From the NCBI RefSeq assembly GCF_913063105.1, contig NZ_CAJXYQ010000001.1, forward strand, positions 62,001 to 126,000: a stretch of 64,000 bases of DNA, written 5' to 3'. The translations under genes were made by a program, and so were the position numbers. Below are positions 10,106-61,400 of this stretch, piece by piece. Below the pieces are notes generated by a model. The model was given only the letters and a program-made list of their open reading frames with translations, was not told the origin of the DNA and did not search any database. The number at the start of each line of letters is the position of its first letter. Within the stretch, counting starts at the first letter, position 1. The DNA is from an uncultured Draconibacterium sp. (GTDB lineage Bacteria; Bacteroidota; Bacteroidia; Bacteroidales; Prolixibacteraceae).

Positions 10106-10145
10106 TTCAGCTTTATTTGGTAATCTGCAAGTTCAGCTTTATTTG
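10106..10145 (+). promoter_or_regulatory. Candidate promoter of the SAM-riboswitch operon within a 14-bp direct repeat
   Basis: The word TTCAGCTTTATTTG occurs twice, at 10106-10119 and 10132-10145, a 26-base period. The end of the first copy supplies TTG (10117-10119). After 18 bases the second copy supplies TTTATTTG (10138-10145), one mismatch from TAnnTTTG. A start near 10150 would put the riboswitch about 50 bases into the leader. Whether the repeat has a regulatory meaning of its own is unclear. Confidence 0.4.
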
Positions 10146-10203
10146 TGAAATCACAAAATCAACTATCTTTATGCCATCAAATATTCTTTCAAAAAAGGGT
10201 GTT

Positions 10204-10306
10204 TGATTATACAGAAGAGTGGAGAGATCGGGCTCAATGAAACTCTGGCAACCTTCATCAGTTATGAAAAGGTGCCAATACCCGGCCGGTAACGGAATTA
10301 TAATTG
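10204..10306 (+). promoter_or_regulatory. SAM-I (S-box) riboswitch aptamer
   Basis: The conserved S-box core is readable: AGTGGAGAGA, GGGCTCAATGAAACTC, TGGCAACC and AAAAGGTGCCAAT occur in the right order and spacing. The P1 helix closes the element, with 10204-10211 pairing with 10299-10306 over eight pairs, two of them G-U. SAM binding normally stabilises P1 and shuts off expression. The element lies 197 bases before the first gene of a methionine operon (HcyBio, NIL-ferredoxin, UPF0280, metH, metF), exactly the expected target. Other SAM riboswitch classes do not match this core. Confidence 0.93.
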
Positions 10307-10385
10307 TAACACAATCGATGAAGAAACTGCACTACAAATTATTTTTTACCAGCTATTTGCACGGGGCAAATATGTGTATGCGCGA

Positions 10386-10425
10386 GCGGTTATAACCGCA
10401 TAACCGCATACCAAAACCGTTTTTT
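10386..10425 (+). terminator. Expression platform of the SAM riboswitch (alternative hairpins and T-run)
   Basis: A perfect 14-base palindrome GCGGTTATAACCGC (10386-10399) is followed by two further AACCG words, at 10402-10406 and 10415-10419. The last runs straight into TTTTTT. The single CGGTT arm can therefore pair with any of three AACCG partners, and only the last pairing gives a hairpin abutting the T-run. This is what an attenuator with competing folds would look like, although the stem is short. The remaining leader (10307-10385 and 10426-10502) shows no other feature. Confidence 0.5.
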
Positions 10426-10502
10426 AGTTGAATTTTTAAAAGGCAAAACCATGCCCGGAATTCGTTTTTGGGCAATGAAAAATTTGCCACGCTTGATATA
10501 TT

Positions 10503-11666
10503 ATGCCAAAAGAAAAATCTTACGAAGAAATTAATCAGAAGCTGAAGGCAGGAAAAGCAGTTGTTTTAACTGCCGAAGAAGTTGCACAACTGGCAAAAAA
10601 ACTATCGCCAGAAGAAATTGTTGAACAGGTAGACGTAGTAACAACGGCCACCTTCGGAGCCATGTGTTCGTCGGGGGCAATCATTAATTTTGGCCATGCT
10701 AACCCGCCAATACGCATGGAAAAAATAAGGTTAAACGGGGTACCCTGCTACGAAGGACTTGCTGCGGTTGATTCCTACATCGGCGCAACTGCCTGCAATC
10801 CCGACAACCCGGATTATGGTGGTGCTCATGTTATTCAGGACCTGCTTGAAGGCAAAGATGTGGTTTTGGAAGCCTGGGCCAAAGGAACCGATTGTTATCC
10901 GCGAAAGCACATAAAAACCACCATTAACATTAACTCCATTAACGAGTTTACACTTTTTAATCCGCGCAATGCCTATCAGAATTATAACGTGGCAGTAAAC
11001 ACCACCCCAACAATAAAACACACCTACATGGGAACACTGCTTCCGAATTTACGCAATGCCACTTATTCCACTTCGGGCGAGTTAAGCCCTTTATTAAACG
11101 ACCCTGATTTTAAAACCATTGGTCTGGGTACACGTATATTTTTGGGAGGCACACAAGGCTTTGTGGTATGGCCGGGAACGCAGTTTCATACCACACGCCC
11201 AAAAAACGATTTGGGAGTTCCCGTAACCAACGCAGCCACCATTGCCGTTATGGGTAACCTAAAAGAAATGTCGGCCGATTACATTCAGGCAGCATCCTAC
11301 GAGAAATATGGCGTAAGCATGTTTGTTGGCATTGGCATACCCATTCCTGTTTTAAATACTGATATTGCCAAACGGGTGTCAATCAACAACAGCCAGATTG
11401 AAACTTCGGTATTAGATTATGGAACAAATGGCACCCCAAAACTGGCTCAGGTAACCTACGAACAGCTACAATCGGGCTTTATAAAGGTAAAAGGGAAAAA
11501 AATCAGAACCGCCCCGGTAGCCAGCCTAAAAAAGGCACGTAAAATTGCCGATGAACTAAAAAAATGGTTGCAGAACGGACAATTTGAAATAAGTAAACCG
11601 GTGCAAATGTTCCCGGGCAACACCTCGTTAAATCAATTAATTGAAACGGAGGCCGACAATGATTAA
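10503..11666 (+). CDS. Homocysteine biosynthesis protein, HcyBio (DUF39) family
   Basis: 387 residues spanning the whole HcyBio/DUF39 domain. In methanogenic archaea this family, with a partner NIL-ferredoxin, makes homocysteine from aspartate semialdehyde and sulfide, avoiding acylated homoserine. The N-terminal half carries four cysteines, Cys55 (AMCSSG), Cys82 (GVPCYEG), Cys98 (TACNPD) and Cys131 (GTDCYPR). These are candidates for the persulfide chemistry proposed for the family. It is the first gene after the SAM-I riboswitch and overlaps the NIL-ferredoxin gene by 8 bases, which indicates tight coupling. Family and context are strong. Catalysis in this organism is inferred from the archaeal work. 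Confidence 0.9.
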   Translation: MPKEKSYEEINQKLKAGKAVVLTAEEVAQLAKKLSPEEIVEQVDVVTTATFGAMCSSGAIINFGHANPPIRMEKIRLNGVPCYEGLAAVDSYIGATACNPDNPDYGGAHVIQDLLEGKDVVLEAWAKGTDCYPRKHIKTTININSINEFTLFNPRNAYQNYNVAVNTTPTIKHTYMGTLLPNLRNATYSTSGELSPLLNDPDFKTIGLGTRIFLGGTQGFVVWPGTQFHTTRPKNDLGVPVTNAATIAVMGNLKEMSADYIQAASYEKYGVSMFVGIGIPIPVLNTDIAKRVSINNSQIETSVLDYGTNGTPKLAQVTYEQLQSGFIKVKGKKIRTAPVASLKKARKIADELKKWLQNGQFEISKPVQMFPGNTSLNQLIETEADND

Positions 11667-12069
11667 GAAAAGATACATCCTGAATTTCCCTCCGCAAAGC
11701 GGCGATAAAGCATTTACCTACCATTTGGTTAAAGATTACGACATCAGAATAAATATTCTGAAGGCGGAGGTATACCCCGGAAAACGCGGAAGCCTGTTGC
11801 TTGAACTGCAGGGTAAAAAAGAAAACATCGAACAAGGTGTTGAATACATTAAAAGCCATAAAATCACCTGCGAATCGCTCGATAAGCGTATTCGCTGGAA
11901 AGAGGAAAAATGTATCGACTGCGGCAACTGCTCTGCCGTTTGTTTTGCCGGGGCCCTTACAATGAACAAAGAATCGTGGAAACTGGAATTCGACAAAAGC
12001 AAATGCGTGGTTTGCGAACTTTGTATTCCGGCATGCCCGCTAAACCTTTTTGAAATTGATTTCCGTTAA
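11659..12069 (+). CDS. NIL-domain protein with two 4Fe-4S clusters (HcyBio partner)
   Basis: 136 residues. The NIL domain covers about 1-75. A ferredoxin-like half follows with two cluster motifs: Cys85-88-91-95 and Cys116-119-122-126, the latter ending in CP. I chose ATG 11659 because a strong GGAGG lies 7 bases before it and it overlaps the previous stop, as in translational coupling; a TTG 18 bases earlier is less likely. NIL-ferredoxins are the known companion of HcyBio proteins in sulfide-dependent homocysteine synthesis and are thought to supply electrons for persulfide reduction. This is the exact gene pair seen in methanogens. Confidence 0.9.
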   Translation: MIKKRYILNFPPQSGDKAFTYHLVKDYDIRINILKAEVYPGKRGSLLLELQGKKENIEQGVEYIKSHKITCESLDKRIRWKEEKCIDCGNCSAVCFAGALTMNKESWKLEFDKSKCVVCELCIPACPLNLFEIDFR

Positions 12070-12081
12070 CAACTGTAAGCT

Positions 12082-12834
12082 ATGAAGCTTTTTGAAGAAC
12101 GAACATACCGCAGCCAATTTAATACCGAGCGCTTTAAAGGCTTCGAGATAAAACATCTGGAAACCGACCTTTGGATTGGGGTTGATCCCGAGTCGTACAA
12201 AGAAGAAATGCAGGTTGTTGCCTTGGCGAAATTACAGGCCCTGCGCCAAACTTTTGATACCTACATTGAAAAAGAACCGTTTTTCAAAAAAAGCCTAAAG
12301 CCCTTTCAACCATCAGAATTTGCACCAACCGAAGCAAAAGAGATGGCGCTTGCAGCCGAACAGGCCGGCATTGGCCCTATGTCGGCGGTGGCAGGATTGT
12401 TTGCACGCAAAATTGGCGAAGAAATTTGTAAAAACTTTTCCGTGAAAGAGCTGTTAGTTGAAAACGGTGGAGATATTTACCTGCTATTGGAAAAGGAACT
12501 GGTTCTTTCTGTTTTTGCCGGTGAGTCCATTCTTTCCGAACGAATAGGATTGGTAATTTCAGCGGGTGAAGGAAGCTTTGGCATTTGCACATCAGCCGGA
12601 ACTGTTGGCCCGTCGTTAAGTTACGGAAAAGCGGATGCTGTAGTAGTAGTTTGCAACGACATACTGCTTGCCGATGCGTTGGCAACTGCACTGGGCAACA
12701 AAGTTAAAACGCCCGACCATGTGGAGAAAGTGATTAAACAAGCCGAAAATTACTCTGCTATACAGTCCTTGCTTATTATTTGCGAAGACAAAATCGGGAT
12801 TAAGGGGGAGAACGAAATACGAATATTGAAATGA
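12082..12834 (+). CDS. UPF0280 family protein, probable sulfide-assimilation partner
   Basis: 250 residues of the UPF0280 (COG2122) family, related in fold to the ApbE-type flavin transferase group. Recognisable features are the Gly-rich stretches [11 protein letters not shown] and VENGGDIYL, and a C-terminal [12 protein letters not shown] region. In Methanosarcina a member of this family improves sulfide use for cysteine and homocysteine synthesis. Here it is third in the SAM-riboswitch operon, 12 bases after the NIL-ferredoxin, supporting the same job. Its exact chemistry is unsettled. No signal peptide is present, so it should be cytoplasmic. Confidence 0.85.
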
Positions 12835-12910
12835 AAGGAAAGGCCCCCTGAGTCACCTCAAGGGAAGATCAGACAAAACAACAGTTACGAAGAAATTGAA
12901 AGAGAGAAAA

Positions 12911-15900
12911 ATGAGTTTAAAAAAAGACATACGTAAAGAATTAGAGAAAAGGGTTTTGGTATTGGATGGTGCAATGGGATCACTCATTCAGGGCTATAAA
13001 CTGGAGGAGAACGATTACCGGGGAGAACTGTTGAAAAATCACGCTGACGACCAAAAAGGTAATAACGACATGCTTTCGCTTACCCGCCCTGATGTGATTG
13101 CCGAAATTCACGAAGAATACCTAAAAGCCGGTGCCGATATAATTTGCACCAATACCTTTAATGCTACAAGTATTTCGCAGGCCGACTACAACACCGAAGC
13201 CTACGTTTATGAAATGAATAAAGCATCGGCAGCAATAGGCCGCGAGCTAGCCGATAAATATACCGAGGCAAACCCTGCCAAACCGCGTTTTGTTGCCGGA
13301 TCAATTGGGCCTACCAACAAAACACTGTCCCTATCGCCCGATGTAAACGACCCCGGCTACCGGGCCATTACTTTCGACGAAGTAAAAAATGCTTACCGCG
13401 AACAAGCCGAGGCCTTGCTGGATGGTGGTGCCGACCTGTTTCTGATTGAAACTATTTTTGACACACTTAACAGCAAAGCCGCCATTTTTGCCATTGAAGA
13501 AGTGTTGGAAGCAAGAGGCGAAAACATTCCGGTAATGATATCGGGAACCATTACCGACGCCAGCGGACGCACACTGTCGGGACAAACCTTAGAGGCCTTT
13601 CTGAATTCAGTTTCTCACATCAACCTGTTAAGTATTGGTTTAAACTGTTCGCTGGGTGCTACCGATTTAGAGCCCTACATCAAAGAACTGGCCGGAAAAG
13701 CACCTTTTCATATCAGTGCACACCCCAATGCCGGCCTGCCCAACCAATTTGGCGAGTACGACGAAACACCGGAAATTATGGCCGGGCACATTAAACACTA
13801 TCTCGACAATAACTATGTAAATATTATTGGAGGTTGTTGCGGCACCACACCGGCACACATAAAAGCCTTTGCCGATATGGCAAGCAAAGCAGCACCACAT
13901 CACATTCAACAGGCATCCACCTACACTAAACTTAGTGGATTAGAGCCGGTTACTATCACTGAAAATACCAACTTTCTGAATATTGGTGAACGTTGTAATG
14001 TAGCCGGATCGCGTAAATTTGCCCGTTTAATCAGCGAAGAAAAATACGAAGAAGCGCTGTCAATTGCCCGCAACCAGGTTGAAAGCGGAGCACAGGTAAT
14101 CGACGTAAATATGGATGACGCCATGCTGGACGCCGAAAAAGAAATGGTAACCTTCCTTAACCTGATAATGGCCGAGCCCGATATCGCCCGACTTCCGATA
14201 ATGATCGATTCATCAAAATGGCATGTAATTGAAGCCGGGTTGAAATGCTTGCAGGGAAAAGCCATTGTAAACTCCATTAGTTTAAAAGAAGGCGAAGCAG
14301 TTTTTATTGAACAGGCACAAAAAATTAAACGTTACGGTGCAGCAGTTATCGTTATGGCTTTTGACGAAAAAGGCCAGGCCGACAATACTGAACGACGCAA
14401 AGAAATTTGTAGCCGCGCCTACAAAATACTTACCGAGCAGGTAAAACTGCCTGCACAAGATATTATTTTCGACCCCAACGTACTTACCATTGGCACCGGT
14501 ATTGAAGAGCACAACGCTTATGCGGTTTCATTTATCGAATCGGTAAAATGGATAAAACAAAACCTGCCCCTTGCAAAGGTTAGCGCCGGAGTAAGTAATG
14601 TTTCGTTTGCATTTCGCGGTAACAATGTGGTACGCGAGGCTATGCATTCGGTTTTCCTTTTTCATGCCATAAATGCCGGACTGGATATGGGAATTGTAAA
14701 CCCCGGAATGCTTCAAATTTACGATGAAATACCGAAAGACCTGCTTGAAAAAATTGAAGACCTGGTACTAAACCGCAAACCCGACGCTACCGAACGTTTA
14801 CTCGAGTTTGCCGAAAACCTGAAATCATCAGCAAAAAAAGAGGAGATAAAAGACCAATGGCGAGAACTTACGCTAGAAAAACGCATTGAACATTCGCTGG
14901 TAAAAGGCCTTCCCGAGTTTGTCGACCAGGATATGGCTGAAGCTATTGAAAAATACTCGCCTGCATTAACCATTATTGAAGGTCCGCTAATGGACGGCAT
15001 GAATGTGGTTGGCGAACTTTTTGGCTCCGGAAAAATGTTTCTGCCACAGGTAATTAAATCGGCACGGGTAATGAAAAAAGCGGTAGCCTATCTGCTGCCA
15101 TATATTGAAGCCGATAAAGCAAAATATAAAAACAGTACTTCGCAGAAAAAAGTGCTGATGGCTACTGTAAAAGGCGATGTGCACGACATTGGGAAAAATA
15201 TTGTTGGGGTAGTTTTAGCCTGTAACAACTACGAGATTATTGATTTGGGCGTGATGGTACCCACCGAAAAAATACTTGATGAAGCCATTAAAAATGAGGT
15301 AGACGTTATTGGATTGAGTGGATTAATTACCCCTTCGCTGGAAATTATGGTTGACATTGCCAAAGAAATGGAACGCCGAAAAATGACTATTCCGGTGATG
15401 ATTGGCGGGGCAACCACCTCGAAAATTCATACGGCAGTAAAAATTGCACCCGAATATTCAGCTCCGGTGGTTCATGTAAAAGATGCATCGCTGGCTGTTA
15501 ATGTGGTTGCCAACCTGGTAGCAAAAAACGAATCGTTTATCAAAAACCTTGATGCGGAGTATGAACAAATCAGAGCGTTTCAGGGAAAACGAAAGGAAAA
15601 AGCATACTTAACACTTGCCGAGGCTCGTTCAAATAAGTTCAAAATTGATTGGAACAATACACCTATTTATAAACCAAATTTCACAGGAGTTAAGCACTTA
15701 ATCGATTTTCCGCTTGAGGAGTTGAGAAACTATATTGATTGGACTTTCTTTTTTATTACCTGGGGATTAAAAGGCCATTATCCGCAAATTTTAGCAGACG
15801 AAAAACAGGGCGAAGAAGCCAAAAAACTGTTTAAAGAGGCCAATGAGTTTTTGGATGAAATAATTGAAAAGAAAATGCTGCAGGCTAATGCCGCATTCGG

Positions 15901-16579
15901 AATTTGGCCGGCTCTGGCTGATGGCGACGACGTTGTGCTTTTCGGTGATGAAGCCTGCCAACAAGAAATCGGGCGTTTCTACCACCTTCGTCAGCAAGAG
16001 AAGAAAAAGCAAGGTGTAGCCAATTTTTGCTTATCCGATTTTGTTGCCCCAAAAGAATCGGGCAAAGTAGATTACTGTGGAGGGTTTGCCACCACAGCAG
16101 GCATTGGCATTGAAAAATGGACCAAAAAGTTCCGCGAAGAAAACAACGATTACAAAGCCATTATGGTTGAAGCCCTGGCCGATAGGTTAAGCGAAGCTTT
16201 TGCCGAGCTGCTGCATTTTGAAATTCGAAAGAATTACTGGGGCTATGTTCCGGACGAGCAACTTTCGCTGGAAGAAATGCTGAAAATAAAATACCAGGGT
16301 ATTCGCCCGGCACTGGGTTACCCGGCTTGCCCTGAACACTCTGAAAAAGAAAACCTTTTTAAATTAATTAAGGCAGAGGAAATTGGCATTTCGCTAACCG
16401 AACATTTTGCCATGTATCCCAATGCTTCTGTTTCGGGGCAATATTTTGTGCACCCCGAGTCGAGGTATTTTAGCCTCGAAAAGGTGGGTAAAGACCAGGT
16501 GGAAGATTATGCCAACCGAAAAAATGAATCGATTGAATTTGTTGAGAAGTTTTTATCCATTAACCTGAATTATAAATAA
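12911..16579 (+). CDS. metH: Cobalamin-dependent methionine synthase
   Basis: 1222 residues, full length for MetH, which methylates homocysteine using methyltetrahydrofolate and B12. Domains in order: homocysteine-binding barrel (1-320, zinc ligands in GLNCSLG and GGCCGTT), pterin-binding barrel (about 345-620, starting near [11 protein letters not shown]), cobalamin cap and Rossmann domain (about 640-880), and the SAM-dependent reactivation domain (about 900-1222). His758 in GDVHDIGKN is the lower cobalt ligand. I start at ATG 12911, preceded by AGAGAG; a TTG 15 bases earlier is possible. It receives homocysteine from the upstream trio and is followed by metF. Confidence 0.97.
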
Positions 16580-16735
16580 AGCCAAAACAAGCATTAAACA
16601 GAGTATCGAACCCTGTATGCCCGGCGTAAATTATATCAATTCATTAAAAAAACACGGATTGAAGCGGTATTTATACGGCCAAACCAACGAACAGGTTCGA
16701 ATTTGTTAAATTTGTTGTTGTAAAACAGACTACAG

Positions 16736-17689
16736 ATGAAAGTTATTGATACCATAAACCAGGCAAAAAAAACGGTATTCTCTTTTGAGTTGCTTCCGCC
16801 ATTAAAAGGAAACGATGTATCGCGTTTACACCGTACCATCGAGAGTTTAACCGAATTTGATCCGAAATACATTAACATTACCACCCACCGCGACGAGGTG
16901 GAGTTCAAGGAACTTCCCAACGGTAAAATCGAAAAACGTACGGTTCGTAAACGCCCGGGAACAGTTGCCGTTGCTGCAGCCATACAGCACAAGTACGGAA
17001 TACCCGTGGTGCCTCATATTTTATGTGGTGGCTTTACTCGCAGCGAAACAGAACACGTTTTAATCGACCTTAATTTTCTGGGGATCAACAATGTTTTGGC
17101 CCTGCGTGGTGACGGATTAAAAGGACAACATGTTTTTCAGCCTACACCGGGAGGAAATGCCAATGCCAACGAGCTGGTTAAGCAGATTAAAGACCTGGGC
17201 AAAGGAAAATACCTGGAAGAGGACCTGAAAAACAACTCGCCACTTGACTTCTGCATTGGAGTTGCAGCTTATCCTGAAAAGCATTTCGAATCGCCTAACA
17301 TGGAGCAGGACATGCTTTACCTGAAACAAAAAGTGGATGAGGGTGCCGATTATATTGTAACGCAAATGTTTTTTGATAACCAGGTATACTACAACTTTGT
17401 AAACAGGTGCCGCGAAATGGGAATTACCGTTCCCATTATTCCGGGTATTAAACCCATTAACCTGAAAAACCAGCTTACTGTGCTGCCTAAAATTTTCAGT
17501 ATCGACCTGCCACAAGATTTATCAAAAGAACTGGCAAAGTGCAAAAATAACGACGATGCCAGACGTGTTGGTACCGAGTGGGCCATTTATCAATCGAAAG
17601 ATTTGGTGGCCAACAATGTTCCTTCGTTGCACATTTACACCTACGGTATTTCCGACAATGTAAGCGAAATTATTAAGGCTGCGTTTTAA
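16736..17689 (+). CDS. metF: 5,10-Methylenetetrahydrofolate reductase
   Basis: 317 residues with the MetF barrel pattern: FSFELLPPLKG at the N-terminus, ITTHRDEVEF, then LRGDG (about residue 122) and DYIVTQMFFDNQ (about 205). The enzyme reduces methylene-THF to the methyl-THF used by MetH, so its place just after metH completes methyl supply in the operon. The 156-base gap from metH contains a TAAATTTG word (16707-16714) but no matching upstream TTG. A secondary promoter is therefore possible but weak. The gene ends at a clear terminator. Confidence 0.96.
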   Translation: MKVIDTINQAKKTVFSFELLPPLKGNDVSRLHRTIESLTEFDPKYINITTHRDEVEFKELPNGKIEKRTVRKRPGTVAVAAAIQHKYGIPVVPHILCGGFTRSETEHVLIDLNFLGINNVLALRGDGLKGQHVFQPTPGGNANANELVKQIKDLGKGKYLEEDLKNNSPLDFCIGVAAYPEKHFESPNMEQDMLYLKQKVDEGADYIVTQMFFDNQVYYNFVNRCREMGITVPIIPGIKPINLKNQLTVLPKIFSIDLPQDLSKELAKCKNNDDARRVGTEWAIYQSKDLVANNVPSLHIYTYGISDNVSEIIKAAF

Positions 17690-17716
17690 AGCACAAACAA
17701 TACAAGTAAAAAATTA

Positions 17717-17751
17717 GGCTGGAAGTTTTCATTTTCCAGCCTTATTTTTTT
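17717..17751. terminator. Bidirectional terminator between metF and the DUF4837 gene
   Basis: Stem GGCTGGAA (17717-17724) pairs with TTCCAGCC (17734-17741) around a 9-base loop. It is followed on the plus strand by TTATTTTTTTA and on the minus strand by TAATTTTTTAC. It serves two converging genes. Confidence 0.85.
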
Positions 17752-50980: not shown

Positions 50981-52213
50981 ATGAAAAAAACCGGATTTAC
51001 AACCACCGCCCTAAATGTACCCTTTGCCAAAGCCGACCCCCACAATGCTTTGCAAATGCCGCTTTACGAAGCTGTAGCTTACGAGTTCGACTCGGCAGAA
51101 CAAATTGAGGCCAACTTCAGGGGTGAATATATTGCTCATGTATACTCCCGATCGTCGAGCCCAACGGTAGAGTATTTCGAGTTGAAACTAAAAGCACTTA
51201 CCCAAAGCAGCGCTGTAATTGCTGTTAGCTCGGGTATGGCAGCCATTTCGAATACGCTGCTGGCCCTTACCAAAGCCGGCGATAATATTATTTCCGGCAA
51301 CCGATTGTTCGGACATACTTTTGCTCTCTTTCAAAATACACTTTCTGAATTTGGACTGGAAACCCGTTTTAGTAAACTCTGTTCTGAATCAGAAATAGAA
51401 AAATTAATTGACAAAAATACCCGGGCCATTTATTTTGAAACGGTTACCAATCCTCAGCTGGATATTGCTGATATTGAAATGCTGTCGCGCGTAGCAAAAA
51501 AACACCAATTGTTATTAATTGCCGATAGTACTCTAACACCACCCAATGTTTTTAATGCCGGGGAGTTTGGAATTAATATCGAAGTGCTTTCTACTACCAA
51601 ATACATTTCCGGAGGAGCAACTTCGTTTGGTGGCGCCATAATCGACCACGGAAATTACGACTGGAAACGCAACCCAAACCTATCGGCCTATACCGAAAAG
51701 TTTAAAGCCAACGCATTTGTTGCCAAAATAAGGAAAAACATTTACCGAAATACCGGCGGAAGCATGGCGCCCCAAACTGCCCGCTTTCAAATTCAGGGGC
51801 TCGACATATTGGAGCTTCGGGTAGAAAAATGCTTTCAGAACTGCCTGGCGCTGGGCAATTTTTTGAATGCACATCCTCAAGTTAAAAAAGTGAGCTACCC
51901 GGGATTGGAGACGGATGAGCGCTACCCTTTGGCACAAAAGTATTTTAACGGCATTCCGGGCACCATTATGAGTTTCGAGCTTGAATCGAAAACGGCCTGT
52001 TATGCTTTTATGAACAGGCTTCAAATCATTCGTCGGGCCACAAATCTTAACGACAACAAAACATTGATTATTCACCCCTACTCCACCATTTATGCCGAAT
52101 TTACGGAAGAAGAACGCTCTGCAGCAGGTATTAACGATTGTATGCTACGCCTGTCGGTAGGTATTGAAAATGTAGGTGATGTAATTGCTGATATTGAGGC
52201 GGCCTTATCGTAA
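50981..52213 (+). CDS. Cys/Met-metabolism PLP enzyme (O-acetylhomoserine sulfhydrylase/methionine gamma-lyase-like)
   Basis: 410 residues of the trans-sulfuration PLP family. PLP-binding Lys207 is in STTKYISGGATSFGG. The phosphate/partner-subunit motif YSRSSSPTVEYFE (54-66) differs from the usual Y-x-R-x-x-NPT by Ser for Asn. The cofactor Asp182 is in IADSTLTPP. Family members include O-acetylhomoserine sulfhydrylase, cystathionine synthase/lyase and methionine gamma-lyase, and sequence alone cannot separate them here. It is a single gene with no SAM riboswitch, far from the methionine operon. Confidence 0.88.
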   Translation: MKKTGFTTTALNVPFAKADPHNALQMPLYEAVAYEFDSAEQIEANFRGEYIAHVYSRSSSPTVEYFELKLKALTQSSAVIAVSSGMAAISNTLLALTKAGDNIISGNRLFGHTFALFQNTLSEFGLETRFSKLCSESEIEKLIDKNTRAIYFETVTNPQLDIADIEMLSRVAKKHQLLLIADSTLTPPNVFNAGEFGINIEVLSTTKYISGGATSFGGAIIDHGNYDWKRNPNLSAYTEKFKANAFVAKIRKNIYRNTGGSMAPQTARFQIQGLDILELRVEKCFQNCLALGNFLNAHPQVKKVSYPGLETDERYPLAQKYFNGIPGTIMSFELESKTACYAFMNRLQIIRRATNLNDNKTLIIHPYSTIYAEFTEEERSAAGINDCMLRLSVGIENVGDVIADIEAALS

Positions 52214-52480: not shown

Positions 52481-55400
52481 TTAGTAAGCCAACATTACGG
52501 TACCATTTTTAACCGTACCCAAACCATCGTTCAGTATCAGCACATAAATGTAGTTACCGGCCGGCAATCCACCCGATTTACCAATGGTAAGTATGTTTTC
52601 TGAGGTTCCCCACCACCAGGCATCTTCGTAAGTTCCCCAAACATCGAGGTTACCGTAATGTTCTTTTTCCCAAAGCTTCACACCGTTTCGGTTAAAGATC
52701 ATCAGCTTCGCATTCGGGTATTTCTGTATACACAAGATCTGGAAGAAGTCGTGAACACCGTCATCGTTTGGCGAGAATCCGTCAGGAATAAACAACTCGC
52801 AGTTCAATTCGGTATCCAGGTATTCCGGATAACCATCGAGGTCGAGGTCGTCGTTACTGTAATCGCCATCGCCATTTAGGTCTTCGTTCACTGTTGGGTA
52901 CTGGTCATCTTCATCGTTGGTATCGCGCCAGTCGCGTATTCCGTCGCCATCAAAGTCCTGAATTGGTGCATTGCTGCCCGTTTCGTTTCCGTAATCGGCC
53001 CATCCCGAATAAGTATCATAAGCATCATCCAATCCATCTCGGTCTTCATCAGAGTACCATCTTAATACATCGGCAATACCATTATTATCGTCATCGTGGC
53101 CTTCAATCATATCAAATACCCCGTCGTTATCCGAGTCGATATCGAGGTAGTCAGGCATCGAGTCGCCATCGGTATCTTCCGGAGTAAACGGATAGCCGCC
53201 ATTTTCCGGATCGTAGGCATCGTCCCAACCGTTACCGTTACCATCGCGGCCCGTTGGAGGGATATAATTACCTTCGGCCTGTCCTTCAATGTTATCAGGA
53301 ATACCGTCGTTATCCGAGTCAATATCGTAACTATCGGGTATGCCATCGTGGTCGGAGTCGATAGCGCGGTCGCCCTCAACAATATCAATAATACCATCGT
53401 TATCGTCGTCAATATCGTCGGTATCCGGAATTCCATCACAGTCGTTATCCGGTACGCGTGTAATGTAAACCCAGGCTGTATCGCACAACGACGGAATACC
53501 GTTGTCGCAAATCACATACTGGAAGCTGTCAATTCCGAAGAATCCTTCAAATGGGATGTATTCGAAGTTTCCGTTGGAATAAAGGGTAAGGGCGCCACTG
53601 TCAGGTGGTGTTACCGGCACCGGATTAACGCTTATGTCATCTCCATCCGGATCGGAATCATTTAGAATAACATTTCCAAATAAGTCGCCACAAGGTACTT
53701 CGTAATAATCATCAACCGCAATTGGCGGATTATTGGCCGGACGAACCATAATAAATACAATGGCCTGTCCACATTCGGGCTCACACGGTATACCATCGTC
53801 ACAAATCTGGTAACGGAAAATATCCGGTCCTTCATAATCGAGGTCAGGTGTATAGGTTACCATACCGGTGTTATTATCAACAACCACCGAACCATGACTT
53901 GGCGCAATAACCACACCAAGCGATTCAAGGTTGATATTGGTTTTCAGATCGTAGTCGTTATTGGTCACCGGAATTTCAACCGGAACATTAACTGCGGTAA
54001 CAGCCGAGTCGTTCACCACGTTTGGCGGCAGGTTGCCAAATACCTCGAATGTTGCCTCGCAAGTACTTGAATTGCCATTCACATCGTAGGCAGTTACCGT
54101 TATGGTGGTAATACCAATATTGTCGCAATCCAGTTCATAATCGTCGAGTAATACAGTGTCAATACCACACTCATCAGATACCGTGTCGGTAACCATATCC
54201 CAGCTCAATTCATATTTTCCGTACTCATCCAACTGAATGGTTTGTAACGGACGACACTCAATAAACGGATCAACCGGATCGATAACGGTAACAATAGCTT
54301 CGCAGGTATCGCGTAAACCATAATAATCGGTTACAATTAGTGTTACCAGGTTATCTCCAACATCAAAACAGTCGAACTCATCCGGCGTTATCTGATAGGT
54401 TTCAATTCCGCAGTTGTCAAACGAGCCGTTATCAATCATATCAGGGGTTATGGTAGCTATACCTGTATCATCAAGGTAAACCGTAATATTTTGACAAATG
54501 GCTGTTGGTGGAATGTTATCTCCAATAATTATATCGGCCACACAAACGCCTGAATTTCCGGCTTCATCTGTTACAACCACATTAACCTGCCGGCCTTCTT
54601 CCACATCCAAACAGGTGAAATCGCTTATGTCCACATCAATTATCAGATCTTCAGCTGCAGTACAATTATCTGATGATCCGTTGGCAATAGTTGCAATGTC
54701 AATTTCTGTCATAATGTAATTGCCTTCGTCATCGAGATAAACGGTTATGGAATTACACACCGGAACAGGAGGAATTGTATCGGTAAGGGTAATTACCTGC
54801 TGACAAGAATCAACATTTCCACAAAGGTCGGCAATGCTATAGTAGTTGGTAATTGTTGTACTACCTAAAGCATATTGTTTTTCACTACGGAAAGTGAATG
54901 AATTCGGATCTATTTCACAATTATCTGTTAGTACTCCTCCGGCCGCCTCAAACGCTTCAATAGTCGTAATATCATGCAGCACTTCTGACAGACACTCAAT
55001 AGCGGTATCAGACGGGCAAATTATTACAGGTGGAGTAATATCGTTTATGGTAATGCTGTATGAACATTGCGCAATATTTCCACAAATATCTTCAATACTG
55101 TAGGTTCTTACAATAATTAACGGACAGGTAGTGCCATTTAAGCTATCTCCCACATGACGGAACGAACTTTCAAGCAACTCGTAATTATCTGTTGCTGTTC
55201 CACCTGCCGCTACAAAATCGGCAAGACTGGTAAATATCCGGGCGTTTACATCATCGAAACACTCAACTGATATATCTGCCGGACAGGTTAGCACCGGATT
55301 CGACTCGTCGCGTTTGAAAATGGTGTATGAACAGGTTTCCGACCAGTTACCGCACTCATCTGCAACAATGTAGGTATAGGTCATCTGGCCTTCGCAATCT

Positions 55401-58400
55401 GACACCAGCGAATCGAGACTTACCAATGTAAATGATGAAGAATCGATTTCGCAATTGTCGCTGGCAGAACCACCTCCACTAATAAATTCACTTAATACCA
55501 CGTACGGATCAGGGTAAGCTGCGGTTGCATCGATGGTATCATCAGGCGGACAGAACAACAAGGGCTTTTCATCGTCAACCACAGTGATGGTATGTGTGGT
55601 TTCGCCACGGTTGCCACTCATATCGTAGATTTCGTAGGTATTGATATATCTTCTCGGGCAAACGCTATCGTAGGTAATCGACGAGATTAGTTTAAAGCTG
55701 CTGCTGTCAATCTCACAATTGTCGCTGAACCAACCGCGGAAGCTTAAGAATACCTCAATGGTTGTAATTTCAACCGGATCGCACACCAGTGTAGTATCCG
55801 GTATACCAATCAACGGCGGTATAGAATCGATTACTGTTATTTGCTGAATATAATCGGTGTAATTATCACACTCATCAGTAAAACGATAGGTACGGAAAAC
55901 AATACCCGGACTAGCTGCCGAATCACCTTCATAAGTCATTACAAAGTCACCGCAATCGTCGTCAACCAAACCACCATCTGCCCTGAATTCGGCATAATCG
56001 GCATAAGGCCCCGGCATGTAACAATCGGCATTCAGGTCGTTTGGTGTAGCAAGTACCACCGGAGGAATGGTATCGTTTTTATAAATATACTGAGTTGCCT
56101 GTCTGTAGTTACCACACCCATCAGTTAATCGATAGGTTCGGGTATATGTGGTCGGACAGGTGCCAAACTGGTCAGTAACCATTAAAGTAAGTGTAAGGAA
56201 TCGGTCCTGACAGTTATCATCGGCTATATCTCCGGCAGCCCGCACTTCGTAAATATCTTCGTAAACCCTTGGCAGCGGATCGTTACATCCCAGGGTAATT
56301 TCTTTAAATTCGAGATCTGGTCGAATGGTATCATCCACTTTAAACACCTGTATACAGCTGGTTTCTTCGCCATTTACATTGCGTATAAAGTAAGTAATGG
56401 TAATAGTTTTCGGACAGCTACCACTGCTGCTGATAGTGGAGCGGAACGATGACGGATCTAAGGCAACCGGATTACTGTAGGCCACACCTCCGGCAGCTTC
56501 AAAGGCTGCCAATGAAGTATAGCGTGGAACTTCAGGTTCACATTCGAAAGTATAGCCTGACAGATTCGGACATTCCAACACAAATTCAGCAGCCTGGTAT
56601 ACATATATAATTTGTGTACACTGCGTAGTATTACCGCAGAAATCTCCTACTTCATATGTTCTGGTAATTGTTTCCGGATCAGTACCTCCATCCGATACAT
56701 CGCTAACGTGACGGAAACTAACCACCGCACAATTATCGCTGAAACTACCTCCCATTGCCAGGAATTCTGATGTATCGGCAGCCGGATCAGGAGCAAAACC
56801 ATAGCCAACAGTTAAATCAGGAGGACAATTTAATACCGGATCTATCTGATCGTCAACAATTATCTGATGTGTTGCACTTAATGTATCGCCATCGAAATCC
56901 AATACGCGGTAGGTGCGAATTTCTTCGTAACAGTAGTTGACTCCAACATAAACTACAGTATCAACTGTGAAGGTACTGGTATCAATTCCGGCATTTGAGA
57001 ATACCTCCACATCAGGATGCAGCGCAAGATAGGCCAGTAAGGAATCCAGCAATGGATAGCTAAACCGCTCCTCGTAACAAATTTCTGTTACAACCGGCGA
57101 CATATACTTATCAAGCGGAACAGGTTCGGTTATGCTTACTGTTATGCTTGCAACACATTCGTTTGCATCGGTAACTGCTAAGGTATAGTCGCCTGCAGCC
57201 TGATTAAATAAATCTTCGTTTATTCCAATGGTGTCTCCTGCTTCGTTTGTCCAGGCGTAATCATAAGTTGGTGTTCCTCCGATAACCGAAACATCGATAC
57301 TTCCGGTTGAATCGCCCATTACCAGCACATCGGTAACGGATACAAGGATAATCTCGAGCTCTTCCGGTTGCTCTATGGTAACAGTTAAAGTGGCTGAACA
57401 GCCAAGTGTATCGGAAAGTGCATCGGTAACTGTGACCGTATAAACACCAGCCGGCAGGTTAGTTAAATCCTCCGTGATTTCTCCATTGCTCCAGCTGTAA
57501 GTATAAGGTTCAATACCACCTGAAACTTCGATATCGATTGAGCCTGTGCTATCGCCATAACAAAGCACATTAACCGAATCAGCCATAATTACCGGATCGC
57601 TGATTACCACATGTAACCAGGCCGTATCCGGACATGCAGAGCCAGTACCTAGAACACGGAAGTCGTCACCTGTTTCGGTATAGGTTAAGCCGGTTCCATC
57701 TGTCCAGGTATATTCTACACAAGCATAAACCGTATCGTAAGTAACACCTCCATCAATTAATGTGGTGGTAAGAATAACAATGGAATCGCATCCCAAATCG
57801 GTTTTTAATGTAGCCTCGTATACATTTTCTACTGTGGTAGAAACAGTGTATCCATTCCAGTCATATTCCGGATCTCCAACACAAAGAACCGTATCCATAC
57901 GTACTGTATCCGGTGGCAAAATGGTGACATTATAGGTCAACAAACTATCGCAATTGTAGAAATTCGGAATGGTATCAAAATAAATCCACGATTGGTCAGA
58001 TGTAATCGTTACATTATTTATGGTAGTGTCAGGTGCTCCGTAACAAAGCGTTAAGTACAGCACCGAATCAGTTACCGGCAATACAGTCACTTCGTAATAG
58101 ATTAAAGTATCACAACCCGACGGACCAGGTGCATTGTAGATATAAACACTATCCGTTTCATTCGATATACTTATTCCATACCAGTCGGCCACCGGATCGC
58201 CATAACAGATTGAATTGGTAAGGGTATCTTTCATGGCCGGCAGAATGGTAACATCGTAGGTTAACAGCGAATCACAACCATATTGGTTAGCACCAGGCAG
58301 TGTATCAAAATAAACCTGGCTGAAATCGGTTTGTATCCATACATTGTTCCAGGCAAATTCCGGACTACCTTCGCACAATATGGTGTCCAGCAAAGTATCG

Positions 58401-61400
58401 GTAAGCGGATGCGAAATAAGTGTTAACTCCAGTCGTAAGGAGTCGCAACCCTGCTGATAGTAGAGCGTATCGGTATAAATACTGTCACGGTCAGTCAGGA
58501 TATTAATCGAATGCCAGGTGAAGGCCGGTTCGTTCTCACAAATCTCAATGGTATCCAGAATATAAGTTGGACGAAGTATTTCTACATCAAGATACACTAT
58601 CGAATCGCAGCCATACTGATTGGTAAGTACATCGGTGTAAATACTGTCGGTATACGCATCTACCTGGTTAATGGTATTTACACCCCAGGCAAAGTCTGGC
58701 TCTCCTTCACAAATGGTAGTATCAATGGTTACCGTATCCGGATACACAATACTTACATTTAATGTCAGCACCGAGTCACATCCAAACTGATTGGCTCCAA
58801 CCAGGGTATCCCGATAGGTACTGTCATTTAATGCATATACCATCAGATTATTCCATGCAAAAGCAGGCGTTTCGTAACACAGCATGGTATCAATTATCGT
58901 ATCGGTAATTGGCAGAATTTCAACATTAAATATGAGTAGCGAATCGCAATTATATCGGTTATTCAGACGTGTTTCGTATTGATCGCTAAAGTTGGTTTGA
59001 ATGGTATTACTATACCAGGCAAATGGTGCATCGCCTTCGCAGAGCGTTGTATCCAGATAAGTGGTGTCGGGTGGAATTACAAATACATTCAGCGTAACCA
59101 GCGAATCACAATTGAATTGATTCTGGAGCGTTACCTGGTAGCTGTCGTCGCGGGCTGAAGTAATGGTTTGTCCGTTCCAGATAAATGAAGGTGCTCCAAC
59201 ACATAAAACGGTATCCATTTCAAATGTACTAACCGGATTCGACTGCACGGTTAAGGTCAATATCGAGTCACAACCAACAGCATTAACAAGCGTTGCATTG
59301 TATACGCCATCGCGGTCGGTTAAAATCGTATTTCCATTCCAGTCGAAAGCTGGCTCATTCTCGCATACCTCAGTAAGCTCGTCGCTATAGGTCGGATAAA
59401 GAATACTTACTTCCATGGTAACAACGGAATCACAACCTTCGCTGGTTTTTAGGGTAGCCGTGTAAGTGCTGTCGTTGGTACTAACCAGGTCAAATCCATT
59501 CCATGGCACTGCCGGATCACCCAGACAAAGCGTCATGGTTTCGGTAGTATAACTTGGAGGAATAATAATAACATTCAGTGTCAGTAGTGAATCACAACCA
59601 AAACGATTGACCAAAACAGCTTCGTAGCTGCTATCCTGATCGGTTAGTACAGTATGTCCATTCCACGGATATGTTGGTGCTCCCTGACATAAAACAGTAT
59701 CCAGAACAACGGTATCGGGTTCGTGTACTTCAACATACAAGGTTAACAGGGTATCACATCCTAAACCGATAATACCGGGGATGGTATCCTGATATTCACC
59801 GGCAGCTGTAACCGTATTTCCAATCCAGTTATATGGTAGTTCATCTGTACACAAACTCAGGTACATCGTATCTTCTTCCAATGGCTCGATAAACAAGTCA
59901 AGAACCCGAATAGTATCACAACCCACACCGATTTCTCCTGGAACTGTATCTACATACTGACCTCCTGCATCATAGAAATTGCCGTTCCAGTCGAAAGGTA
60001 GTTCGTTGGCACAGATGCTGGCGTAGATTGTGTCTTCTTCCATTGGCTCGATGTACAGATCCAACATTCTTATGGTATCACAGCCTACGCCGATTTCGCC
60101 CGGGATGGTGTCGATATATTGACCGGCGGCATCGTAGAAGTTGCCGTTCCAGGTGAATGGTAGCTCGTTGGCACACAGGCTTACGTAAATGGTATCTTCT
60201 TCCATTGGCTCAATAAACAGGTCGAGCATCCGGATGGTATCACAGCCTACACCAATCTCTCCCGGGATGGTATCGATATATTGACCGGCGGCATCGTAGA
60301 AGTTACCCAGCCAGTTGAATGGAAGTTCGTTGGCACATAAGCTTACGTAAATGGTATCTTCTTCCATTGGCTCGATAAACAGGTCGAGCATGCGGATGGT
60401 ATCACAGCCTACGCCGATTTCGCCTGGGATGGTATCGATATATTGACCGGCGGCATCGTAGAAGTTGCCGTTCCAGGTGAATGGTAATTCGTTGGCACAT
60501 AAGCTTACGTAAATGGTATCTTCTTCCATTGGCTCGATAAACAGGTCGAGCATCCGAATGGTATCACAGCCTACGCCAATTTCTCCCGGGATGGTATCAA
60601 TGTATTGACCGGCGGCATCGTAGAAGTTACCCAGCCAGTTGAATGGCAATTCGTTGGCACACAGGCTTACGTATATGGTATCCTGAATAGGTGGCTCAAT
60701 GCGCAGCTCTATGGAGTCGCTTGTGGTACAGGCATTGGCATCGATAACCGTATAAATCAACTGATAATTTCCGGCTGCTGCTCCACTAAAGATAACATCG
60801 GAAGAATCTGTTCTGTCGAGATAAACGGCTCCCGCACCTGTCCATAAGTGAGTCAGTTCTCCTGTTCCTCCGCTTGGATTACCGGCCAGCAAAATCACAT
60901 CATTTTCACAGGCAATGGAATCATCAGCCGTAATGTCTGCGAGCAACTCTTCCAATGGCTCAAACACAAACTGGAGCGATTCGTCACAAGAGTCTTTATC
61001 GTTTACGGTTACCCAATAAATACCGGGCCCTACATTAGGCAGGTCTTCATCAGTAGAAAGAACATTTCCGAGCGTATCTGTCCAGAGGTAGGAATAAGGT
61101 TTACGCCCCCGTTCCACTGTCAGATAAATACTCCAGGTATCGCCGTAACATTGTGCAGTATCCACTACTGCTGATAGTCTGATATTTTTAATTTCATTGA
61201 TATATACCTGATGGAAGGCCGTACAGCCCAGCGAGTCGGTTACCCAAACGGTATACAGCTGGTCGCCTGCCAGCGAATCCACATCCTCGGTAGTGGCAAA
61301 TACATTTCCGGTGCTGTCGGTCCACTCAAATAAATAGTAAGGTGCATTGGCAAATGGTGTACCTCCGGAAACGTGCAAATCAATCTCTCCCGGTTTTTTG

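Follow-up and report, generated by a model that had tools for sequence, protein, structure and literature searches.

A SAM-I riboswitch aptamer in a 64,000-nucleotide (nt) stretch of an uncultured Draconibacterium genome, termed here the window, precedes an operon of five genes in the order HcyBio, NIL-ferredoxin, UPF0280 (together referred to below as the trio), metH, and metF. Between this putative sensor of S-adenosylmethionine (SAM) and the first gene lies a short open reading frame (ORF) whose end is marked by methionine and cysteine codons. We consider it probable that the aptamer gates translation of this leader ORF, such that two stacked sensors control the operon. This architecture is proposed from sequence features, namely the aptamer, the leader ORF, the narrow spacing between them, the in-frame Met codons, and the recurrence of the arrangement under many family labels. 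Translation of the leader, stalling within it, and a downstream step involving either a hairpin or Rho are its predicted consequences.

According to the proposed mechanism, the operon products would convert aspartate semialdehyde and sulfide to homocysteine, which would then be methylated to methionine. In the SAM-bound state, the ribosome landing site would be covered by the AU-rich P1 stem, the 3' strand of which stops 11 nt short of the leader ATG, and the leader would stay untranslated. When SAM is low, ribosomes would translate the leader and reach the Met-Cys-Met codons located just before its end. A scarcity of charged Met- or Cys-tRNA would then slow decoding, the hairpin at the leader stop would be blocked or Rho would be kept off, and the operon would be turned on. 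The regulatory region that suggests this scheme carries the following features.

10142..10171, plus strand: weak candidate Bacteroidota-type promoter (TTTG, 18 nt, TATCTTTA; pattern match alone)
10204..10306, plus strand: SAM-I (S-box) aptamer (RF00162, 79.1 bits, E 5.8e-17, model 1-108, full length)
10318..10395, plus strand: leader peptide ORF (25 codons plus stop, MKKLHYKLFFTSYLHGANMCMRERL, with NMCMRERL as its last residues; read directly)
10372..10380, plus strand: Met-Cys-Met codons ATG TGT ATG in the leader, the proposed sensing codons
10386..10399, plus strand: palindrome GCGGTTATAACCGC over the leader stop, hairpin-capable, with no U-run directly behind

The match to the RF00162 covariance model (cmscan, cut-off 44.4 bits) bears out the claim of an earlier sequence-only reading that a SAM-I element with a closing P1 stands ahead of the operon. 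It covers the full model above the curated score, and is the sole match above the gathering score across the 64-kb window; no other SAM-I was found in the assembly of the organism (4.93 Mb, 91% complete). P1 is AU-rich (GGAATTATAATTG on its 3' side), and a short P4 is able to close on a GUAA loop; binding of SAM by this aptamer is predicted. The candidate promoter has one mismatch in its -7 element to the consensus TAnnTTTG given for Bacteroidota in PMC9723704 (published sources are cited throughout by PMC number and for the excerpts available).

The sequence-only reading had the riboswitch act on the operon directly, and it had overlooked the ORF at 10318-10395. The anatomy of the region points instead to an intervening leader peptide. 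The leader ATG at 10318 is at +12 from the end of P1, and the leader stop is 107 nt before HcyBio. As expected for an attenuator, the ORF is short, has a coding signature as judged from sequence comparisons, and has end-product codons close to its stop. Separately, AU pairing between the P1 3' strand and the leader codons was noticed by eye.

Similar leaders are present in related loci. The closest 80 of at least 547 HcyBio loci from named genomes were scanned with a custom aptamer model trained on seven sequences (the window and six of the 80 loci, which match by construction). Forty of the 80, including those of Odoribacter and Butyricimonas, have a SAM-I aptamer directly 5' of HcyBio, and each of the 41 matches, with the window included, shares the strand of this gene and lies immediately before it. 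An ORF lies between aptamer and HcyBio in 32 of the 41 loci, with its ATG at +8 to +15 in the relatives and often with a Met/Cys-rich end (25 loci). Dinucleotide shuffles of the same loci gave means of 7.7 ORFs and 0.15 Met/Cys-rich ends, with maxima of 15 and 3. Leader ends such as SFMHFSNMCMR, SMSMCMRCMR, and SSMDMRCMR recur, and the Met-Cys-Met residues are identical in 10 of 10 aligned leaders.

A broader survey drew 295 genomes evenly from the order Bacteroidales and took all 99 of their SAM-I sites above the cut-off, the window counted in. These sites were split by the P1 3' strand into an AU-rich kind (n = 86) and a GATAAG kind (n = 13), with 96 sites classed by computation and the last three by eye under the identical rule. 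A leader ORF was defined by an ATG at +5 to +22 from the last P1 base, and its end was called Met/Cys-rich if the last eight residues, not counting the initiator, held at least two Met or at least three Met plus Cys. Families were counted by anonymous family labels.

Leader ORFs follow 66 of the 86 AU-type aptamers, and 44 of these ORFs are Met/Cys-rich whereas 22 are not; at seven other AU-type sites the metH start is in place. The GATAAG kind has a single leader, which is not Met/Cys-rich, and 12 sites without one. First genes behind the AU kind are mostly metY, metH, aspartokinase, or HcyBio, and those behind the GATAAG kind are mostly metB-like or metH. Two kinds of SAM-I are thereby seen in one order, the GATAAG-type P1 aptamers being those of loci L094-L101, L110, L114, L115, L119, and L157. 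Met/Cys-rich leaders occur under 26 of the 40 AU family labels (96 sites).

The leaders were compared with chance expectation in 200 rounds of shuffling, for which 80 of the 99 sites were used, 67 of them AU-type. A leader ORF is present at 49 of the 67 AU loci (shuffle mean 12.7, maximum 24) and a Met/Cys-rich end at 31 (mean 0.23, maximum 2). ORFs at other start distances in the same sequences are Met/Cys-rich in only 0 to 3 of 66 cases. Counted over the final 30 nt of each of 63 leaders, ATG triplets number 117 in frame versus 4 and 3 in the other two frames, and the imbalance is retained with one leader per family label (61 versus 2 and 1; 31 labels). All six Arg codons are in use among the leaders. 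Under one family label Cys stands in for Met, with the end CCCFCCC before metY in two genomes (L146, L231), and in one of the same genomes a leader ending in CCCCCCC precedes a gene without assignment (L124). Because runs of Cys can replace Met in this manner, codon meaning is favored over a nucleotide motif. These patterns suggest that the short ORF after an AU-type P1 is protein-coding, and we infer that it is translated.

The position of the start codon is likewise constrained. Its ATG falls in a peak at +12 to +14 in 42 of the 70 AU-type sites that have a start codon in the searched range. Among leaderless loci, four have HcyBio's own ATG at +8 or +13 and seven have metH's own ATG at +12 to +21, while three leaderless HcyBio loci start at +30 or +32. 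Because an enzyme ATG sometimes takes the place of the leader ATG where the leader is missing, we read the aptamer as a single translational switch that would act on whichever start codon sits about 13 nt behind P1, in the window that of the leader. Bacteroidota messages are mostly without Shine-Dalgarno sequences.

That the spacing from P1 to ATG holds for 11 full genes as well is also what would be expected of a relay without amino acid sensing, in which the ribosome on the leader merely keeps Rho off the message or melts a hairpin and the Met and Cys codons are no sensor. A precedent for such a relay exists in the Mycobacterium ppe2 cobalamin riboswitch, whose effect likewise depends on a small upstream ORF being translated (PMC12713380). 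The ppe2 ORF overlaps its gene and operates by reinitiation, whereas the window leader is separated from HcyBio by 107 nt and includes codons for what the pathway makes. We regard a relay of this type as unlikely, since it leaves unexplained both the Met/Cys-rich ends of 44 of the 66 leaders and the leaders that precede methionine genes without an aptamer.

Leaders of this latter sort were encountered at several places. Before HcyBio, a leader without a detected aptamer is present at L032, L059, L061, and in genome G502 (L227). In the genome of the window itself, contig C10 carries an aspartokinase-like gene, metY, and metA in a row, and 83 nt before them is the Met-rich leader MNIDSRNTNSFTAASCCSAMFMSSMFMSMR (L091 5477-5569) with the hairpin GCCTTCAA...TTGAAGGC at its stop. 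A scan of this region (L091 4000-10000) at E up to 5 gave six matches, none of them to a SAM family. Because a leader precedes the C10 operon and an aptamer was undetected there, both homocysteine operons of the organism appear to have Met-rich leaders, with SAM-I added only on the one that uses sulfide directly. The Met leader before aspartokinase-metY-metA is found in three further family members that were fetched. Among 20 metA loci, a Met leader is seen in the three of the window's family, and no short ORF ending in Met-Arg was seen in the other 17, one of which has metY adjacent; four of these 17 (L195, L202, L203, L205) do have short ORFs that pass a loose Met/Cys filter. The pattern ATGTNYATGCG occurs at 17 sites in the genome of the window versus 7 for a control pattern; two of the 17 are the window and C10 leaders, and further short frames are among the rest.

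We lean, on balance, toward viewing the arrangement as one example of a widespread and previously unreported two-input class in Bacteroidales. Operons for the trio, metY, aspartokinase, and in some cases metH would be on only when SAM and charged Met- or Cys-tRNA are both low, and aptamer and leader would be modules that are kept or lost independently.

An ordinary SAM-I riboswitch that acts directly on the operon, through a terminator or the HcyBio start and with the short ORF irrelevant, would need no such leader. SAM-I is present in Bacteroidetes, and control by a terminator or by the ribosome-binding site, the latter via the P1 3' strand, is the known case for this class (PMC2258182; SAM regulons are surveyed in PMC3766115). 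Direct action would also suit seven of the 41 SAM-I HcyBio loci, which have no leader and in which HcyBio starts 8-32 nt after the aptamer. In the window, however, HcyBio starts 196 nt past the end of P1, and a search for an intrinsic terminator between the two yielded nothing convincing. The conservation of the ORF as protein, its narrow start distance, and in-frame Met codons far beyond those of shuffles are also difficult to reconcile with an irrelevant ORF, and we judge direct action in the window to be quite improbable.

The seven leaderless loci nevertheless imply that the relay is dispensable, and several other findings likewise weigh against the two-sensor reading. At 13 of the 86 AU-type sites neither a leader nor a gene start is in place, 22 leaders fall short of the Met/Cys-rich definition, L035 and L048 match neither arrangement, and the aptamer-less HcyBio loci of G462, G529, and G398 are without a Met leader. 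The leaders before aspartokinase-metY-metA come from one family and may be a single inherited event. Cys is without a frame signal of its own (TGT or TGC 47 in frame versus 112 and 11 out), a count that says nothing because TGY is present wherever C or T comes after ATG. The weakest of the coding tests is the ratio of nonsynonymous to synonymous variation (pN/pS), because the ten aligned 25-codon leaders on which it was calculated, the window included, are close relatives; their value of 0.34 compares with a column-shuffle mean of 0.83. Three of 1000 column shuffles came down to 0.34, and in seven of 1000 every one of the ten ORFs stayed open. For another six leaders, which form a second group, the ratio was 0.28, calculated without shuffle control. 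Folding of 60-nt segments at the leader stops of 32 loci gave a mean z of -1.27 versus -0.53 and -0.58 for the flanks, a moderate hairpin signal in that z is below -2 in seven of the 32 versus three and four on the flanks. Directly behind the leader hairpin of the window there is no intrinsic terminator with a U-run. Because U-runs are not directly behind the leader hairpins in the sequences inspected, Rho or coupling to translation is as likely as intrinsic termination to be the downstream step.

It is very doubtful that the leader is an arrest peptide, with a nascent MxMR end that stalls the ribosome on a metabolite in the manner of TnaC and tryptophan and independently of tRNA charging, for although Arg is enriched in the last eight residues of the survey leaders (13.8% versus 4.2% elsewhere), leader bodies vary among family labels and Cys runs can replace Met.

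In the two-sensor architecture that we favor, the leader resembles the trp, his, and ilv attenuators in being a short ORF with product codons near its end and a putative hairpin at its stop. It is unlike them in its Met and Cys codons, in its location directly behind a riboswitch, and in that no intrinsic terminator was seen. The arrangement also departs from the usual SAM-I design, because the first start codon past P1 opens a Met/Cys-ended leader and P1 is followed by neither a terminator nor the enzyme gene. The Bacteroid-trp motif is presumably a Trp leader. This motif is listed for Bacteroidota in PMC2864571, leader-peptide attenuation has been suggested for Flavobacterium amino acid operons (PMC9723704), and some long 5' untranslated regions of B. 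thetaiotaomicron contain small ORFs reminiscent of leader peptides (PMC7366714). Leader peptides are also treated in PMC4833913 and PMC2965389, in whose available portions a methionine leader is not among the matter covered. A literature search, with subscription journals and preprints mostly outside its reach, gave among the matches listed neither a methionine leader peptide joined to a SAM-I riboswitch nor a SAM riboswitch before DUF39.

The genes of the operon and the element that closes it are as follows.

10503..11666, plus strand: HcyBio (DUF39, COG1900; PF01837, 489.5 bits)
11659..12069, plus strand: NIL-domain ferredoxin (PF09383 and PF00037; two 4Fe-4S motifs)
12082..12834, plus strand: UPF0280 (COG2122, ApbE-related; NCBIfam PRK04334.1-3, 238.5 bits; PDB 2o34, 2e-31)
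12911..16579, plus strand: metH, cobalamin-dependent methionine synthase (NF007024, 1992 bits; TIGR02082, 1726 bits)
16736..17689, plus strand: metF, methylenetetrahydrofolate reductase (TIGR00676, 307.7 bits)
17716..17742, plus strand: terminator-like hairpin, then U-run (hairpin scan)

Profile matches agree with the gene order on one strand that was proposed by the sequence-only reading, and a terminator-like hairpin behind metF agrees with the one terminator mentioned there; the scan of 8 kb that located it gave 13 such sites versus a shuffle mean of 11.2. The description of the genes as joined by overlaps or short gaps is accurate for the trio, in which the NIL-ferredoxin ATG at 11659 falls inside the end of HcyBio, overlapping its stop, and UPF0280 starts 12 nt past the ferredoxin gene. 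It does not extend to the gaps of 76 nt ahead of metH (measured to its ATG) and 156 nt ahead of metF. The metH start is probably the ATG at 12911, with the frame open also from a TTG at 12896. For the third gene the PRK04334.1-3 score, from a family which we take to be UPF0280, is below the cut-off of 271 bits, and no Pfam match was obtained at 0.001.

HcyBio reached 136 bits with the related methanogenesis marker 16 model, far under its cut-off of 364. The methanogen enzyme L-ASST is MA1821-MA1822, in which Cys54 is essential (PMC12068725). Cys55 and Cys131 of HcyBio, kept in 80 and 78 of the 80 loci, respectively, match Cys54 and Cys131 of MA1821 in position. With a PF01837 match and a Cys54 equivalent assigned by position, HcyBio has the attributes of an L-ASST-type protein, and we propose that its product is a homocysteine-forming sulfurtransferase. 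The CBS domain reported for the methanogen enzyme in the same source was not found by Pfam in the window protein.

The union of aptamer and operon is conserved. Rfam's own model identified SAM-I at 7 of 14 distinct HcyBio loci scanned. Around the HcyBio genes of the 295-genome draw, a scan with strict filters, under which weak matches are lost, located a same-strand SAM-I just upstream of 7 of 11. Because the window aptamer is the sole SAM-I found in 4.93 Mb and 7 of 11 HcyBio genes have one upstream, its placement before HcyBio by chance is very unlikely. The recurrence of the trio under SAM-I in relatives, which the sequence-only reading had put forward as a check, was thus observed at 40 of 80 loci and in 7 of 11 genomes of the draw. 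A phylum-wide draw found HcyBio in 1 of 392 genomes, that of the window alone, and is for this reason uninformative on linkage.

Wherever the fetched stretch leaves room, NIL-ferredoxin adjoins HcyBio (78 of 78 loci), as nearly always does UPF0280 (71 of 73). The metH gene is present in 45 of 71 loci with room, and metF comes within 800 nt behind metH in 24 of the 39 related loci with room. Taking the 68 loci that have 450 nt or more of upstream sequence and also room downstream, SAM-I and metH occur together in 33, SAM-I alone in 1, metH alone in 9, and neither in 25. At L062-L067, L069-L074, L076, L077, and L079-L082, mostly metagenome-assembled genomes of rumen or gut Bacteroidales, the trio is seen without a SAM-I match, metH, or metF in the fetched stretch.

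In Desulfovibrio, DUF39, NIL/ferredoxin, and COG2122 proteins are needed for homocysteine formation, and homoserine is not an intermediate (PMC5764234). The same three families (PMC5764234; PMC12068725) make up the window trio, which here shares an operon with metH and metF in a genome that has a separate metA-metY operon besides. The riboswitch agrees with the methionine role of the trio, as the sequence-only reading argued, but as evidence it is not new; because this role was already established by genetics (PMC5764234), the riboswitch confirms it and does not discover it. The related claim that one SAM-sensing unit holds the whole branch from sulfide to methionine stands with regard to the genes and the aptamer, but the branch is not the only one. 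A check for other homocysteine genes found, on contig C10, a homoserine O-acetyltransferase MetA (MetA_acetyl, 493.7 bits) and an O-acetylhomoserine sulfhydrylase MetY (TIGR01326, 674.6 bits), both over cut-off, beside the aspartokinase-like gene (best score 200.8 bits, under the cut-offs shown). The trio as sole homocysteine route of this genome is thereby ruled out. A SAM riboswitch was not found at C10 metY-metA. With metA and metY present as well, the organism may depend on the trio only in certain conditions.

Five of the 11 HcyBio genomes in the 295-genome draw, each 99% complete, have no MetA; MetX is absent from these five or represented by fragments of about 20 bits, and their PF01053 matches are partial, at 28-31 bits just above the 27-bit cut-off, which we read as typical of other pyridoxal phosphate enzymes. 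Because of this combination, the trio is probably the only homocysteine route in the five genomes, barring pathways outside the search. The table of methionine variants in PMC9026213 lists MetA, MetY, CTBL, and CTGS, and the trio is not among the entries available. In G398, SAM-I precedes metY and a metX-like gene on contig C54 (L133), and the HcyBio gene of that genome is without one, so that the aptamer is on the other route. The window itself encodes a further PF01053 enzyme at 50981-52213, similar to O-acetylhomoserine sulfhydrylase or methionine gamma-lyase and below the NCBIfam cut-offs shown. It also contains one ORF of 3749 codons (52481-63730) for a repeat-rich protein that, judged by eye, is probably exported.

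If the two-sensor reading is true, the window would contain a naturally occurring cascade, with a riboswitch governing a ribosome-based sensor of one and the same pathway. Because like aptamers are followed at about 13 nt by a leader in some species and by an enzyme gene in others, the action of riboswitches in Bacteroidota would be directly testable. The arrangement further points to a way in which a cell with two homocysteine routes could control them differently.

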